Source of the DNA: Cohnella herbarum
Lineage (GTDB): Bacteria; Bacillota; Bacilli; Paenibacillales; Paenibacillaceae
Length of the DNA: 64,000 nucleotides
Assembly: GCF_012849095.1 (NCBI RefSeq)
Contig: NZ_CP051680.1
Location: forward strand, 2,046,001-2,110,000
Reading direction: 5' to 3'
Under the pieces are notes generated by a model. That model made no database searches. It was not told the origin of the DNA and was given only the letters and a program-made list of their open reading frames with translations. Position 1 is the first letter of the stretch, and every line of letters begins with the position of its first letter. A program made the position numbers and the translations under genes. This document shows, piece after piece, positions 1 to 44,257 of the stretch.

Positions 1-506
1 ATCGTAAACCCCGTTCTTCCGAGTCCGAGCACGATGCAATTCGACCCGTGGATCGTTATATCGGTATTCTGAATAGCCATCATCAACGCGCCTTCCGCCG
101 TCGGAATCGAGTTGTATATGGCCACGTCGTCCCTCTCGAACAATTCTACGATTTCCAAATGATTTTTCTCGCACAGCTTCTTAAGATATGGCTTTGCCAT
201 ACCCGTAATCACCTTGCTCGCTTTCGGGATAGCGGCGAGATGAGCATCCGTTAGCCTCAACTCTTGATCGCTGAACAACGTTGGAATGACACCTTCGTCA
301 TCCGTACCTACCGCCGGCAATATCAACACGTCAGCCTGCTTTAAAATATCAGGAGACCACTCCGCTTTAACGACCCCGCTAAAGGGAGTATCCAACCTGT
401 CAAAGCCCGTTATCGTAACCGCGGCATCCAACTCCGTCAACCGCCGAATCACTTCCAACTGCCGGGCATCTCCACCCGCGAGAACGATTTGAACTCCCGT
501 AAGTAT
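1..506 (-). CDS. dpaA: Dipicolinate synthase subunit A (partial, 3' end outside window)
   Basis: Catalytic/NAD(P)-binding subunit of dipicolinate synthase (SpoVFA), which with DpaB makes dipicolinic acid in the mother cell from the DapA product during sporulation. Reading the minus strand I translate ILTGVQIVLAGGDARQLEVI, GFDRLDTPFSG, ADVLILPAVGTDDEGV, FERDDVAIYNSIPTAEGA and the nucleotide-binding loop VLGLGRTGFT, which track B. subtilis SpoVFA closely from its first residue. About 168 codons are present; the rest lies beyond position 1. The start is odd: the residue that aligns with the family's initiator Met is an ATA codon (506-504), eight bases after a perfect AGGAGG (520-515). No ATG lies near; an in-frame GTG at 542-540 has no Shine-Dalgarno and overlaps a candidate promoter. 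Either ATA is used or the start codon is mutated. Identity is very sure; the start is not. Confidence 0.9.
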   Translation of the reverse strand, partial: MLTGVQIVLAGGDARQLEVIRRLTELDAAVTITGFDRLDTPFSGVVKAEWSPDILKQADVLILPAVGTDDEGVIPTLFSDQELRLTDAHLAAIPKASKVITGMAKPYLKKLCEKNHLEIVELFERDDVAIYNSIPTAEGALMMAIQNTDITIHGSNCIVLGLGRTGFT

Positions 507-541
507 CGCAGCCCCCTCCTCTCGGCATTTCTTGCATAGCA

Positions 542-571
542 CATCGTATGCATACGCCCAGTCCGGCGTGC
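542..571 (-). promoter_or_regulatory. Candidate sigma-K-type promoter of dpaA
   Basis: On the minus strand a GCAC element (571-568) is followed after 17 bases by CATACGATG (550-542), which resembles the sigma-K pattern (AC at -35, CATA-NNN-TA at -10). It would start transcription about 20-30 bases upstream of the AGGAGG of dpaA. Known biology fits: the spoVF operon of B. subtilis is transcribed by sigma-K in the mother cell. The match is short and imperfect, so this is inference. Confidence 0.35.
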
Positions 572-610
572 CGACCTAATCCTGCTACCGGCCTCGCTCT
601 TTCGCCTATT

Positions 611-1052
611 CTCATTATCCCGTTCGCTCAGGGTAATCCCTTCAACTTTCCATCAAATCAACTGACTTCCTTCTAACCTACCGCAATACCCGCAATACCC
701 GTTATACCCGTTATCCCCTTTATCCCCGTTATTCCCTACGCTCAGGATCGTTCAAGACTTCAGTCCACTTCCCGCCAGCTATGACCGCTATCCCACTCGC
801 TCAGTGTAATACTCGTAACTCCCCGTCGTTCCATATTATTCAAACTGCTATACCAGCCATCCCGCTCGCTCAGGGTAATCCACATAATTACCAGTCCCTC
901 CACCGGCTATCACCACTATCCGGCTCACTCAGAGTAACTCCAGACAATTACTAGTCCCTCCATCGGCTATCACCACTATCCGGCTCACTCAGAGTAATCC
1001 AGACAATTACTAGTCCCTCCATCGGCTATTATCACTATCCCTCTCACTCAGG
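611..1052. repeat. Array of seven about 22-bp dispersed repeats, left side
   Basis: This gene-free stretch (507-1240) is filled with variants of a motif that reads, on the plus strand, ATCCCGCTCGCTCAGGGTAA. Copies sit at about 611-639, 731-747, 788-811, 857-881, 917-941, 977-1000 and 1036-1052. Between them are short pyrimidine-rich strings such as CCCGTTATACCCGTTATCCC (698-717). All left copies have the same orientation; the same motif recurs on the other side of the transposase-like gene in the opposite orientation. I see no coding potential, tRNA or convincing IS end in this stretch. Confidence 0.75.
881..1052. repeat. About 59-60-bp tandem repeat, three copies
   Basis: Three consecutive units, near 881-942, 943-1000 and 1001-1052, share ATTACTAGTCCCTCC, then CGGCTATCACCACTATCC and then CTCACTCAG. 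Units one and two are nearly identical; the third is truncated and ends just before the promoter region of the transposase-like gene. Each unit contains one copy of the 22-bp dispersed motif, so the array probably grew by duplication of a motif plus its spacer. Confidence 0.75.
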
Positions 1053-1171
1053 TTCGTTTTCAAACTTTTCCGATTGACATACATGATTAATAATTTACTT
1101 ACTCTAGGCTTAATTCAGGAAATCCCCGTCTTCAGCACTCTAAATTTTATCCTAAAATTTAGTAAAATAAC

Positions 1172-1200
1172 TTTAAACAAGAACGCATGTTTGGTATAAT
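1172..1200 (+). promoter_or_regulatory. Extended -10 promoter of the transposase-like gene
   Basis: TGGTATAAT (1192-1200) is a consensus TATAAT with the extended -10 TG dinucleotide. TTTAAA (1172-1177) lies 17 bases upstream of the -10 hexamer as a weak -35. Transcription would begin near 1207, about 34 bases before the ATG at 1241, which is preceded by GAAGGAGGA (1227-1235 region). Confidence 0.55.
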
Positions 1201-1240
1201 TGATTTAGATAACCGATTATCATCCTGAAGGAGGATTAGT

Positions 1241-2161
1241 ATGGAATTGTCCGAAATGACTACTTTTTGTCTGTCCGAGGTAAGCGAGACGCAGTGGATT
1301 CAGAAAATTCACGATTCAAGATGGCCAAATGGTTTTTGCTGTCCGAAATGTAGTGCTCGGCATTCCTACACGATCCGAACCCGAAGATTACCTCTCTACG
1401 AATGCAGCGCATGCGGAACACAAACCTCGCTTACCTCAGGTACGATTATGGAGGGAAGCAGAACGCCAATCAGACTTTGGATTCTTGCCATATATCTTCA
1501 CTCGAAACCTGAAGGCATCAGCGCTTCCCGCTTAACAAGAATAATCGGTACCACCTACAAGACCGCGTGGCTTATTTGCCATAAGATTCGCCATGCCATT
1601 GCCCATTCCGACCAAAGCCAATTATTACAAGGATTAGTGCGTATTAATTTCGCTCAATACGGTCACCCATATAACCCAACTGTTTTCAGGCACCCGCAGG
1701 AGCAACCTCTCTTAATCGGAGCAAGTATGAATGCAGCAGGTGAGTTTACCCATATCAAAATCAAGCAAGCCGTCGAGGAATGTTCGTATCCCCAGTTCAC
1801 TTGCCCGTTGGATAAATTTCCTTTTATTCGTAAACATGTCGATCCCCAAGCCACAGAAATCGTTGCGGTTACCCTAAAGTACAGCAAAGATAGAAACAAG
1901 TCTCTTCTCCGTATCTGCCAAAATGCTTCCATATGGATTAATTCCACTTTTAGAGGCATTGGAGCTAAGCATCTGCAGGCTTATTTGGATCAGTACAGTT
2001 ACGGGTTTAATATGACTGTTCTAAAACAAGATGCTTTCTCTAGTCTTTTTAACCTCAGCATGACGACTTCTGCTCTTCCATACCCGGAACTCATCCGTAA
2101 ACCGAACATTCAACCTAAACTTAGATTACAATATGCTCACTACTTAAAAAATGCCAGTTAG
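1241..2161 (+). CDS. Zinc-ribbon IS1595-like transposase homologue lacking catalytic residues
   Basis: A 306-residue protein and the only recognised plus-strand gene. The N-terminus has a zinc ribbon (CCPKC near residue 30, CSACG near 56), then the helix-turn-helix-like SASRLTRIIGTTYKTAW segment typical of IS1595/ISXO2 transposases. The C-terminal family signature KHLQAYLDQYSYGFN is kept. The catalytic positions are not: where the family has a D-E-T motif it reads RINFAQYG, the second Asp motif reads EIVAVTLKYS, and the IES-W-LKR motif reads ASIWINSTFRG. The frame is intact, with a good Shine-Dalgarno and promoter. I could not find terminal inverted repeats of IS1595 type. It may be an inactive remnant still under translation-level selection or a domesticated DNA-binding protein; the reading frame is certain, function unknown. 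Confidence 0.8.
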   Translation: MELSEMTTFCLSEVSETQWIQKIHDSRWPNGFCCPKCSARHSYTIRTRRLPLYECSACGTQTSLTSGTIMEGSRTPIRLWILAIYLHSKPEGISASRLTRIIGTTYKTAWLICHKIRHAIAHSDQSQLLQGLVRINFAQYGHPYNPTVFRHPQEQPLLIGASMNAAGEFTHIKIKQAVEECSYPQFTCPLDKFPFIRKHVDPQATEIVAVTLKYSKDRNKSLLRICQNASIWINSTFRGIGAKHLQAYLDQYSYGFNMTVLKQDAFSSLFNLSMTTSALPYPELIRKPNIQPKLRLQYAHYLKNAS

Positions 2162-2182
2162 TTTCTAATTCGACATTTTGCT

Positions 2183-2276
2183 GAGCTTTGAATGAGCTTT
2201 GAATGAGCTTTGAATGAGCTTTGAATGAGCTTTGAATGAGCTTTGAATGAGCTTTGAATGAGCTTTGAACGAGCTT
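2183..2276. repeat. 11-bp minisatellite, eight copies
   Basis: GAGCTTTGAAT is repeated head to tail: seven identical units from 2183 to 2259 and an eighth (2260-2270) ending AAC, followed by a partial GAGCTT. It begins about 20 bases after the stop codon of the transposase-like gene. Because 11 is not a multiple of three, an antisense reading gives an 11-residue repeat, but there is no sign it is translated. The perfect identity indicates recent expansion by slippage. Confidence 0.95.
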
Positions 2277-2302
2277 CAGCTTCAAATGAGCTTAACTCTA
2301 AA

Positions 2303-2700
2303 CCTGATCGACGGGGATAATGGAGATATTTGACGAATCGAGGATATAAGTTGGTCATATTGGCTATTAGTCGAATAGTTGATTGGATGGATAATTGATG
2401 GGGTGAATACGGGTGGATTTAGATCTAATGGCTATGGAATTTATATTCAAACGACCAACTGATTGTGGGTTTTCTTCTATAACCGAGCGGCCCTGAGCTG
2501 AGGGGATAATGGGTATACAGATGACGAGGCACAGATGTACAGATGCACAGATGTACAGATGCACAGATGTACAGATGCACAGATGCACAGATTTACAGGT
2601 TACGTGAAACCTGAGCAAAAGGGATAATGGCAACAAGGGTGAACATGTGAACAAGCACTTGCATTCGTTTACGATTATCCTGAGCGAGGGGGATCATGTG
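2303..2700. repeat. Dispersed about 22-bp repeats, right side, inverted orientation
   Basis: This is the gene-free stretch between the transposase-like gene and the dut terminator. Four copies of the motif found at 611-1052 occur here on the opposite strand, consensus CTGAGCGANNGGGATAATGG: about 2303-2325, 2490-2512, 2610-2630 and 2673-2700. The outermost right copy (2673-2700) and the outermost left copy (611-639) match over 28 bases with about six mismatches as inverted repeats. I see no coding region or RNA gene here. Confidence 0.7.
2531..2598. repeat. 8-bp minisatellite, eight copies
   Basis: ACAGATGT and ACAGATGC alternate through eight units (2531-2594; the last is ACAGATTT) followed by ACAG. 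It lies between two copies of the 22-bp dispersed motif. The period of 8 excludes a coding repeat, and there are no spacers as in CRISPR. Confidence 0.95.
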
Positions 2701-2702
2701 CG

Positions 2703-2744
2703 AAAAACCACCCGAGCATCGCAAACGGCTGCGTCAGGTGGTTT
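2703..2744 (-). terminator. Rho-independent terminator after dut
   Basis: On the minus strand AAACCACC (2744-2737) pairs with GGTGGTTT (2712-2705) and continues into TTT. It lies 20 bases after the dut stop and marks the end of the mlpA-dut transcript, and also the right boundary of the repeat-rich island. Confidence 0.8.
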
Positions 2745-2763
2745 ATCATTTTTCTTATTCCGG

Positions 2764-3207
2764 CTATTTGCCGGTATGGCCGAAGCCGCCTTCTCCGCGA
2801 ACGGTTTCCGACAGTTCGGTCACTTCTTCGAGCTTGACTTGCGGCACGTGTTGGAAAACCATCTGCGCGACACGTTCGCCCCGCACGATCGTGAACGGCT
2901 CTTGCCCTAAATTAATGAGCAGCACCTTCACTTCTCCGCGATAATCCGCGTCGATCGTCCCCGGCGAGTTCAGGCACGTAATTCCATGCTTGTAAGCCAA
3001 ACCGCTACGAGGCCTGATTTGAGCTTCGAGCTCCCGAGGCATCGCCATCGCGAATCCCGTAGGGATCAATGCCCGTTCTCCAGGAGCAAGTACAACGGGC
3101 TCCGCCACCGCGGCGTGTAAATCGAATCCTGCTGCCCATTCAGACATTTGACGCGGCAATTCAACGTCTTCATTCCCCGGCAGCCTCTTCAACTGAATTG
3201 GATACAA
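2764..3207 (-). CDS. dut: dUTP diphosphatase (dUTPase)
   Basis: Hydrolyses dUTP to dUMP and PPi, keeping uracil out of DNA and feeding dTMP synthesis; a soluble trimer in the family. All five dUTPase motifs are present in order: AGFDLHA, PRSGLA, GTIDADYRGEVKV, RVAQMVF and the C-terminal lid RGEGGFGHTGK. I start it at TTG (3207-3205), seven bases after GGAGGG, giving 147 residues beginning (M)YPIQLKRLP; an upstream ATG at 3243 would add 12 unrelated residues. It overlaps the end of mlpA by 38 bases, so the two are translationally linked. Followed by a terminator. Confidence 0.95.
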   Translation of the reverse strand: MYPIQLKRLPGNEDVELPRQMSEWAAGFDLHAAVAEPVVLAPGERALIPTGFAMAMPRELEAQIRPRSGLAYKHGITCLNSPGTIDADYRGEVKVLLINLGQEPFTIVRGERVAQMVFQHVPQVKLEEVTELSETVRGEGGFGHTGK

Positions 3208-4450
3208 TGAATTCCCTCCCGATTCCCGACAGCACTTTCTCATTCGAGCCTACTAGTGCAACAGCACAAGGCTGCGAAATCATTGATTTCATTATAGCGT
3301 CCAAATCGGACATTTGCACTTGGTCGATCCGCTCCAGCATTTCATCCAAAGTATAATGGCGGCCTAACATGAGTTCGTTTTTGCCTAAACGGTTCATGCG
3401 GCTGCTGGTGCTCTCTAGACTTAAGATTAAGTTACCTTTCAACTGTTCCTTCCCACGGGAAAGTTCAGCTTCGGTTAACCCTTTGTCCGCGATATCATTC
3501 AACAATTCAACCGTGAGATCGTATACTTCTTTCGTTTGCTTGGGCGCAGTTCCCGCGTAAACCGTAAACAGACCGCTATCCGCATACGAAGTATGGTAGG
3601 AATAAACGGAATAGGCAAGACCGCGCTTTTCCCGGATTTCTTGGAACAAGCGGGAACTCATCCCTCCGCCGATCGTATTGTTCAACAAAATCATGGCATA
3701 AAGGTTAGGCGCCTTGCTCGAGCTTCCGGGGAAGGTTAAGCACAGGTGGTTCTGTTCCGTTTTCTTACGATGAAACAACGCACGAGATTGGAATGTCGGT
3801 ACTTCCAGCACGGAGTCGCTGCCCTTAACATCAAACTGTCCGAAATGATGTTCGAGAAGCTCCAGCACTTCTTCTCCAACGTTCCCCGCAAGACTAATAA
3901 CCGTATTATCAATCCGGTATCTCTCTCCCATATACTTGCGCAGATCATTCGAGCCCATCGCGTTTAACCGCTCTGCCGTTCCCAGAATAGAATAGGCTAG
4001 CGGATGATCGTTATAGGCTGCACGGGAAGCAAGATCGTGGACGGTATCATCCGGCGTGTCGTCGTACATCGAGATTTCTTCAAGAATAACGTTCTTTTCT
4101 TTCGCTAGCTCGACATCGGCCATCTGCGAATCAAAAAACATATCGGATAAAATATCTACAGCGATCGGCAAATGCTGGTCCAAAACTTTAGCGTAATAGC
4201 ATGTATATTCTTTGGACGTAAATGCGTTAACGTTGCCGCCGATTCCGTCGAAACGATCGGCTATATCCTTAGCGCTATGGCGATTAGTCCCTTTGAACAG
4301 CATGTGCTCGATAAAGTGGGAGATCCCGTTGTTGTTCAAATCCTCGTAACGGGAACCGGTTTTGACCCAAATTCCGAACGACACCGACCGACATGTCGGT
4401 ATCGATTCGATCATCACGCGCAGTCCGTTCTTAAGCTCATATTTGTTCAT
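3170..4450 (-). CDS. mlpA: M16 family zinc peptidase MlpA/YmxG
   Basis: 426-residue insulinase-family (M16B) metallopeptidase, the usual length for single-chain bacterial processing-peptidase-like enzymes. The inverted zinc motif HFIEH is at residues 45-49, with the downstream acidic ligand region around ILEEISMYDD. The C-terminal M16 domain carries the GGGMSSRLFQEIREKRGLAYSV signature region. In Bacillus the gene sits next to pnp/ylxY and affects extracellular protease production; the substrate is not known. ATG start at 4450. No signal peptide, so probably cytoplasmic. Overlaps dut. Confidence 0.92.
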   Translation of the reverse strand: MNKYELKNGLRVMIESIPTCRSVSFGIWVKTGSRYEDLNNNGISHFIEHMLFKGTNRHSAKDIADRFDGIGGNVNAFTSKEYTCYYAKVLDQHLPIAVDILSDMFFDSQMADVELAKEKNVILEEISMYDDTPDDTVHDLASRAAYNDHPLAYSILGTAERLNAMGSNDLRKYMGERYRIDNTVISLAGNVGEEVLELLEHHFGQFDVKGSDSVLEVPTFQSRALFHRKKTEQNHLCLTFPGSSSKAPNLYAMILLNNTIGGGMSSRLFQEIREKRGLAYSVYSYHTSYADSGLFTVYAGTAPKQTKEVYDLTVELLNDIADKGLTEAELSRGKEQLKGNLILSLESTSSRMNRLGKNELMLGRHYTLDEMLERIDQVQMSDLDAIMKSMISQPCAVALVGSNEKVLSGIGREFIVSNSVEEAAGE

Positions 4451-4515
4451 CCGATTTCCCCCTTTGCTGAATACCTAACGAACAGTGATACCACTATATC
4501 AAATTACGACAACTG

Positions 4516-42790: not shown

Positions 42791-44257
42791 TTATGGTTTT
42801 CGAGACTTCACTTCCTGAACGAGAACCGGTGCTATTCCTTGCAGAGGCAATATTTGAGAAACGGCGCCGAGCTCTACCGCCGAACGAGGCATTCCGTATA
42901 CGACGCAAGTTTGTTCCGCTTCGGCTATCGTCGTTTGGGCACCGTCCGTTTGCAACGCCTTCATCCCTTTCGCTCCGTCGCTTCCCATTCCGGTCATCAA
43001 CACGATATGCCGTTTCAATTGGGGATGCCCGACCAAGGATTCGAACATCACGTCAACCGACGGCTTATGCCCGCCTTTCGGGACTTCATCGGACAGCTTG
43101 ATCCGGTAGGTTCCCGTCACCTCTTTCCGAAGCGTCATATGTCTTCCGCCCGGAGCTATGTAAGCGGTCGCGGTCTCGATAAGTTCGCCGTCCACGGCTT
43201 CCCTGACGTTAATACTGCAGAAATTGTCCAAGCGCTGCGCCAACGAGTGGGTAAACTTGGGAGGCATATGTTGGACAACCAATATAGGTGCAGGGAAATC
43301 AGCCGGAATACCGGTTAGCACTTCGTGCAAAGCTCTAGGTCCTCCCGTTGAAGTGCCGATAGCGACCAAGTGCGTAAACGAAGAAGTGGGCTTGGGATTC
43401 GTTGTTGGCGGAATCGCCTGCGATTGATCCCGGTTGGCCTGCGCTTCGGTTACAGTCGTTCGAACGCTCTTCTTAGGCATAGCCGTTTTAAGTTCGAGCG
43501 ATGCGGCTTTCTTAACGGTTTGACTGGCAAGGTCTTTAACAAGAGGTCTCTCCGGCAATCTGGAAGTTGATATTCCCGGGCTTGCGTGATTCGGCTTTAG
43601 TCTACTTGAATCCGGTTTATCCGGAATTCTGTCGAGTTTTCTCGGAAGCTCCGCGTTTCTCGTCTTTACCGGCTGATCCGGCGGCTTGAAGCTCTCTACG
43701 ATCCTCGTTTTGTTGAGCAAAGGTTCTGCCGGCACATCCGGTTTTTTGGTCTTCTCCACGGGCGGTTTAGGAGAGTCAACCACAACGGGGATGATTTCGG
43801 CCGCCGCTTCCCCTTGTTCCTCAACTGCGGGCAACATTCTTAATGCACCGCTGCTTACCGTTTCTAATGCGATATGTAATTTCTCAAGCAGTTGCTCTCC
43901 AACCTGGCGAATATCCAGCTTAACGGCACCATCCGGCTTGCGGATGAAATCGATCGCTCCGTATTGAAGCGCTCTAATCGTATCCCTCGTCCCGTTATCC
44001 GTCACAGCGGAGAGCATGATCACCGGTGTCGGTTGAAGCGCCATAATACGTTTCAATGCTTCGATTCCATTCCAAAGCGGCATTTCCAAATCCATCGTTA
44101 TGATATCGGGCTTAAGCTTCAACGTTAAATCAACGGCTTCTTTACCGTTCGAGGCCGTCGCCAATACTTCGAAGGCAGCGTCAGCATCGATGACGTCACT
44201 GAACACCTTGCGCATAAATGGGGAATCATCTACGATCAACACCTTAAATTCCGGCAT
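42791..44257 (-). CDS. cheB: Protein-glutamate methylesterase CheB
   Basis: 488 residues, long for the family (about 350-360). Receiver domain (LIVDDSPFMRKV; phospho-Asp in IITMDLEMPLWNG), then an unusually long linker of about 165 residues rich in Lys/Pro/Arg (about 125-295), then the methylesterase with catalytic Ser in AIGTSTGGPRALHE, His in VVQHMPPKFTHSLAQRL and Asp in LMTGMGSDGAKGM. Confidence 0.95.
   Translation of the reverse strand: MPEFKVLIVDDSPFMRKVFSDVIDADAAFEVLATASNGKEAVDLTLKLKPDIITMDLEMPLWNGIEALKRIMALQPTPVIMLSAVTDNGTRDTIRALQYGAIDFIRKPDGAVKLDIRQVGEQLLEKLHIALETVSSGALRMLPAVEEQGEAAAEIIPVVVDSPKPPVEKTKKPDVPAEPLLNKTRIVESFKPPDQPVKTRNAELPRKLDRIPDKPDSSRLKPNHASPGISTSRLPERPLVKDLASQTVKKAASLELKTAMPKKSVRTTVTEAQANRDQSQAIPPTTNPKPTSSFTHLVAIGTSTGGPRALHEVLTGIPADFPAPILVVQHMPPKFTHSLAQRLDNFCSINVREAVDGELIETATAYIAPGGRHMTLRKEVTGTYRIKLSDEVPKGGHKPSVDVMFESLVGHPQLKRHIVLMTGMGSDGAKGMKALQTDGAQTTIAEAEQTCVVYGMPRSAVELGAVSQILPLQGIAPVLVQEVKSRKP

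Follow-up and report, generated by a model that had tools for sequence, protein, structure and literature searches.

A homologue of IS1595-type transposases and its arrays of probable terminal inverted repeats in Cohnella herbarum: a candidate RAYT/REP-like system

The window, as the whole analysed stretch of DNA is called here, comprises 64,000 nucleotides of the 8.52-Mb genome of Cohnella herbarum (contig NZ_CP051680.1, positions 2,046,001 to 2,110,000; this genome is G000, the other G labels denoting genomes and the L labels loci that were compared with it). Between dut and dpaA, both named from NCBIfam, it contains an island made of a gene homologous to IS1595 transposases and of arrays of a short repeat on either side of it. 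The gene lies on the plus strand (1241..2161) and encodes a protein of 306 amino acids with a zinc ribbon, a helix-turn-helix (HTH) and an RNase-H-like fold, whose catalytic residues are lost. The left array (612..1051, minus strand) is composed of seven 20-mers resembling terminal inverted repeats (TIRs), found by motif scan at 612-631, 726-745, 785-804, 854-873, 913-932, 973-992 and 1032-1051, with the inner CTGAGC end toward the gene; part of it, 847-1051, is a 59-bp tandem repeat. The right array (2304..2699, plus strand) has four such copies, at 2304-2323, 2493-2512, 2611-2630 and 2680-2699. The initial annotation, made from the letters of the window, had reported at least eleven copies in opposite orientations, seven to the left and four to the right of the gene, and exactly this arrangement was recovered; the outermost inverted pair, described there as 28 nt with about six mismatches, was found as 26 nt (613-638 and 2673-2698) with 85% complementarity, which is close. 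With up to three mismatches allowed, 11 matches to the motif occur in the window, ten in the island and one stray at 42958, versus a mean of 0.03 and a maximum of 1 in 100 shuffled windows; the copy at 854-873 has four mismatches and hence falls outside this count.

The protein passes the cut-off for the N-terminal zinc ribbon PF12760 (41.4 bits versus 25.4), while it fails that of PF12762, DDE_Tnp_IS1595 (16.4 bits versus 27, on profile positions 103-153 only), and stays below that of NF033547 (65.2 bits versus 75); despite the failed PF12762 score, the RNase-H fold is retained. Among seven scanned homologues, two pass the Pfam cut-off for PF12762, through the same C-terminal piece alone. Pfam and NCBIfam scans of the window protein returned IS1595-type and weak zinc-ribbon/factor matches, with no match to IS200/IS605, and Foldseek against the PDB gave no match at E <=0.001, the best being ISCth4 (E 1.2e-3). 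The catalytic Asp positions are both acidic in none of 205 aligned homologues, an alignment built without 6 of the 99 loci described below and without part of the database proteins listed (those outside 265-345 aa; the database search gave 1171 matches, of which 120 were listed). At the three catalytic positions the window protein has N136, a gap and L223, while the comparators, intact IS1595 elements taken from members of the same order and with a recognisable frame in 11 of 15 stretches, have D, D and H; the dead family has mostly Leu or Ile at the third position. An Asn in place of Glu had been considered as the mark of the dead site; this was wrong in detail, the third residue of the comparators being His. 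Zinc and HTH residues are conserved among the homologues, of which those in Cohnella mopanensis and Cohnella cholangitidis share 73% and 69% identity, respectively, with the window protein. The unit appears to descend from IS1595, but fails the catalytic features of that family.

The ratio of nonsynonymous to synonymous substitution rates (dN/dS) is 0.07 for the orthologues at the dut site, with a defined dS in only 2 of 10 pairs, and 0.10, 0.11, 0.24, 0.26 and 0.28 in five further groups, the sample including 11 of 17 copies of the G023 family, 4 of 5 of G008, 3 of 6 of G127 and 5 of 9 of G037. These values indicate mostly purifying selection on the gene.

Read from its inner to its outer end, the island repeat is CCTGAGCGAANGGGATAATGG; by eye, the 20-nt sequence is not self-complementary and lacks a GTAG foot. 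Intact IS1595 elements of the order-mate G251 have the TIR CCTGAGCTAGTTGGATAATC, in the same orientation as the island repeat, and right ends that read CCTGAGCTAGTTGGATAATCAAA from inner to outer, with CTGAGC directed toward the gene in elements and island arrays alike. At L202 and L203 (right end) and at L205 (both ends) of this genome, no more than 4 of the 18 specified motif positions differ; in the ends of the G110 elements parts of the TIR scaffold are kept, as judged by eye. Intact elements are bordered by 8-bp target duplications in four of five cases in G110 and in one of three readable cases in G251. Because the G251 ends are similar, have the same orientation and point CTGAGC toward the gene, the inverted-polarity array is best read, at the level of sequence, as a set of multiplied IS1595-type TIRs.

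The repeat follows the gene well beyond the window. In the whole C. herbarum genome there are 122 copies at three mismatches or fewer, versus 4 for the reversed pattern, and in the stretches fetched from it only 22 of 108 copies lie inside open reading frames (ORFs) of at least 150 aa, though such ORFs occupy 83% of the bases; within the window, the initial remark that the motif was not seen in core genes is borne out except for the stray copy. The genome encodes five full-length paralogues, all flanked by minus copies on their left side and plus copies on their right, and two short partial matches, the zinc-ribbon IS1595-like proteins at C1:5156041 and C1:8199362 (L014, L015), around which no repeat copies were found. 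The fetched stretches contain 42 clusters, of which ten have both strands; nine of these are strictly minus then plus, the lone exception being due to a stray with four mismatches. A set of 99 loci from the own genome, the genus and the order, corresponding to 98 genes (L076 being the same as L141), shows copies on both sides of the gene in 84 cases, only to the left in 14, only to the right in one and at no locus none at all, with 406 copies oriented as expected and 12 opposite. Tandem arrays of minus-plus pairs, an exception to this polarity, were observed in G213 (C89:198861-199760) and G157 (C60); such a layout is a BIME (bacterial interspersed mosaic element) in the terminology of repetitive extragenic palindromes (REPs), according to PMC8266576.

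All 37 genomes of the genus contain the repeat, in 14-127 copies each, versus at most one control match. In the order it is present in 19 of 20 genomes with the gene (none in G173), and the 20 genomes without the gene have 2 stray matches (control 1), a comparison in which kinship is uncontrolled, because the two sets come from different families and were selected from longer lists, and whose pattern fits one repeat form only. Left and right arrays of the same locus agree at their variable positions (0.63 versus 0.43 when shuffled; 0/5000), and repeat similarity tracks protein identity (r 0.41; 0/5000), both calculated on 34 representatives; the left-right covariation can also stem from duplication or shared descent.

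The promoter of the gene (1172..1200, plus strand) has a -35 box TTTAAA at 1172-1177 and a -10 box TATAAT at 1195-1200 preceded by TG, with 10 of 12 consensus positions matched; between the two boxes lies GAACGCATGTTT (1181..1192, plus strand), of the GAACN4GTTY type that is presumably, as in Bacillus, a LexA/DinR box. At least four boxes of this type stand just upstream of the lexA gene of this genome (L214). Within 150 bp upstream, the box is found at 84 of the 99 genes versus 9 of 1757 background windows, and among the 15 misses at least three (L060, L061, L063) have an internally assigned start codon. A promoter with GAACN4GTTT, likewise of this kind, is found in the intact elements of G110 and G251, as read from the sequence output; L197-L201 of G110 are several almost identical IS1595 copies that have D-D-H residues and, close to the promoter, a LexA-type box. 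Given the box in its promoter, the protein is expected to be made upon DNA damage, and control by LexA in vivo is predicted.

Some units have remained at the same sites over several species. The gene copy between dut and dpaA is common to six Cohnella genomes, that between sigG and ylmC to six genomes, and that beside yunB to twelve order-mates, mostly with one flank matched; all three of these sites adjoin sporulation genes. Of 37 genomes surveyed for the dut-dpaA site, seven gave no locus; the 30 sites fetched comprise six with the gene, 14 without it and with dpaA in reach, and ten uninformative ones. Repeat copies are present at five of the 14 gene-less sites (10, 4, 3, 1 and 1 copies) and absent from nine, and no target duplication was demonstrable there, the gaps being too diverged. 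The initial annotation had stated that a motif common in the genome with no tie to the gene, or present at this junction in strains lacking it, would refute a repeat-based mobile or domesticated unit whose gene product perhaps binds the repeats. The motif is indeed common, and gene-less junctions do carry it; nevertheless, the proposal stands in essence and is partly supported overall, since the motif is tied to the gene and those junctions hold arrays or single copies, with the repeats now readable as IS1595-type TIRs.

Gene-less arrays can persist as well: those at 2.026 Mb and 2.317 Mb of C. herbarum have equivalents in G001 and G005, bounded by the same genes, and at the 2.317-Mb site the repeats agree at 0.82-0.85, a figure inflated because copies were selected by motif match, with spacers at the shuffled level. 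A gene-less array of 14 copies at 2.447 Mb corresponds to one single pair in G001. The arrays are concentrated in one zone of the chromosome (C1:2.02-2.45 Mb in G000, 4.21-4.65 Mb in G001, 0.39-0.70 Mb in G005), at a distance of 0.6-1.2 Mb from the position opposite dnaA; in G000 it holds 6 of the 10 clusters with at least five copies, in G001 27 of 32 copies, and the G005 copies, among the matches listed, lie in the same zone relative to dnaA.

Other features complete the island. An 11-bp tandem repeat TGAGCTTTGAA (2182..2276, 8.6 copies) separates the gene from the right array, and an 8-bp one, ACAGATGC/ACAGATGT (2517..2592, 9.8 copies), lies within that array. Two nucleotides beyond the outermost right copy begins a stem followed by a U-run (2702..2747, minus strand; -23 kcal/mol, z -3.3), the probable dut terminator; a simple terminator scan of 400-3300 found no terminator, probably owing to its loop limits. 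No known RNA family matched in positions 1-4500 of the window, and a phage search gave no match.

The anatomy of the island, the TIR resemblance, the loss of the catalytic residues, the selection on the gene, the promoter box, covariation, co-occurrence and fixed positions make it somewhat probable that the gene encodes an SOS-controlled, catalytically dead TIR-binding protein, domesticated or semi-domesticated, with REP-like TIR arrays, a system comparable to RAYT/REP and built from a DDE-type lineage. The island would go back to an insertion sequence of the IS1595 family, the transposase of which has lost the active site; with its zinc ribbon, HTH and RNase-H fold, the protein would most likely still bind the TIR of the element, which would have multiplied to form the arrays flanking the gene as well as the gene-less arrays and inverted pairs at other places. 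After DNA damage the protein may be expressed and sit on the arrays or bridge them, with no cleavage by the normal chemistry; presumably it has a role in the cell, with selection keeping it, repeats and protein covarying, arrays growing locally and whole units occasionally multiplying.

Several observations weigh against this reading, together with the limits already given for the order comparison, the covariation and the identity of motifs between sites. Units have multiplied: 17 of the 19 copies fetched from G023 are about 90% identical at the DNA level, one G008 pair is 94% identical and one G127 pair 97.6% over 1013 bp, in G127 even though PF12762 gives no match there, so that they look more like a mobile element than a settled gene. 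The very young pair L141/L142 has a dN/dS of 0.71, ten of the 99 loci have a single copy in all, L204 of G251 and five G110 loci have no end within four mismatches of the motif, and the spacing of array copies shows no helical phasing (R at 10.5 bp 0.057, reached by jittered data in 1105 of 2000 runs). Apart from these points, many of the multiplied copies at L143-L158 (G023) adjoin apparent transcription terminators, and at L164-L166 the outermost repeat runs on into a CCCTTTTTCGAAAAAGGG-like hairpin, both observations made by eye.

Multiplication of this kind might mean that the unit is still an autonomous mobile element, moved by its protein, which would either use an unconventional active site or be aided by a host nuclease or by replication. 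Copies at different sites, also in G127, the selection on the protein and a genome of C. herbarum without PF12762 match above the cut-off fit this view, which is nonetheless doubtful given the lack of the acidic triad in all 205 aligned homologues, the long persistence at fixed sites and the ragged boundaries of the multiplied, rather old copies in G023, G008 and G127, with no clean target duplication among the copies listed. A related possibility, rated equally tentatively, is a self-spreading REP-like replicator, in which the damage-induced dead protein would synapse TIR arrays and host repair or replication would copy gene and arrays; multiplication without DDE chemistry could be suggested because of the copies in G127, with no PF12762 match, and in G023, with one over the cut-off. 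Alternatively, intact IS1595 transposases sharing the TIR scaffold could move a non-autonomous relic in trans, the encoded protein being inert. The TIRs do resemble those of intact elements, intact and dead forms occur together in G251 and in G226, and G023 has its one match; however, among 23 genomes searched, 7 lack any PF12762 match at E 0.001 (G000, G016, G029, G024, G127, G113, G222), including G024 and G127 with 13 and 9 homologue matches, respectively, and dN/dS of 0.07-0.28 in six of seven groups, the conserved promoter box, zinc and HTH residues and the repeat-protein covariation are unexpected of an inert product, making this explanation improbable.

Made under the same SOS control, the dead protein might instead restrain intact IS1595 elements by competing for their ends. 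The similar TIRs and promoters of the G110 and G251 elements and the lack of a PF12762 match above the cut-off in the own genome are in line with such a role, to which only a small probability is given, as G251 and G226 contain both the intact and the dead form and arrays are unnecessary for it. Least likely, the arrays might be chromosome-organising sites of the parS/matS kind bound by the protein: the zone in which the arrays concentrate and the gene-less arrays kept at conserved positions would agree with this, but one site has 14 copies in one genome and one pair in another, many relatives are without the sites, helical phasing is absent and the zone may merely reflect old conserved sites with local spread.

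Compared with known systems, the candidate TIR-binding protein and its arrays most resemble RAYT (TnpA-REP) with REP, REPIN and BIME sequences. According to PMC8266576, RAYT belongs to the HUH enzymes, is related to IS200/IS605 and has a catalytic Tyr, palindromic repeats and mostly one gene copy. Both have a transposase-derived chromosomal gene under selection, flanked by its own inverted repeats, repeats dispersed intergenically as inverted pairs and tandem arrays, and protein-repeat covariation; in Cohnella, however, the lineage is DDE-type IS1595 without catalytic residues, the TIR is non-palindromic and has no GTAG foot, the promoter has a LexA-type box and several gene copies are possible per genome. 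The system would work like RAYT/REP without being a member, because enzyme superfamily and repeats are different. With the IS1595 family (ISPna2, ISH4, IS1595, ISSod11, ISNwi, ISNha5 and IS1016 groups; features from PMC8101967) it shares zinc ribbon, HTH, RNase-H fold, a single gene, the TIR scaffold and the promoter box of the G110 and G251 elements, but its catalytic residues are lost, its TIRs are multiplied into arrays, no target duplication was seen and its positions are fixed over several species. Pairs of inverted TIRs that lack a gene and are spaced 34-50 nt apart (L020, L049, L221) recall the miniature inverted-repeat transposable elements of insertion sequences, which differ from the arrays with many TIRs per side that grow in place, in a genome without PF12762 match above the cut-off. 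In eukaryotes, domesticated DDE transposases are known in which selection acts on a transposase-derived DNA-binding protein without cutting activity; here the host is bacterial and the TIR arrays are retained alongside. A literature search, with most subscription papers outside its reach, found no description of this system.

The arrangement seen in Cohnella and its relatives among soil bacteria seems to be a separate invention of a system combining a transposase with repeats, known so far from an unrelated enzyme family. If true, it would be a second, independent bacterial origin of a domesticated transposase with dispersed cognate repeats, from the RNase-H (DDE-type) lineage, and such a repeat system would be tied to the SOS response. 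Since the parental insertion sequence can still be recognised, along with its ends and promoter, the route by which an insertion sequence becomes a repeat system is testable, and some hundred natural protein-repeat pairs are available for decoding recognition. Many genes annotated as transposase in Cohnella and Paenibacillus are probably unable to cut DNA in the known way.
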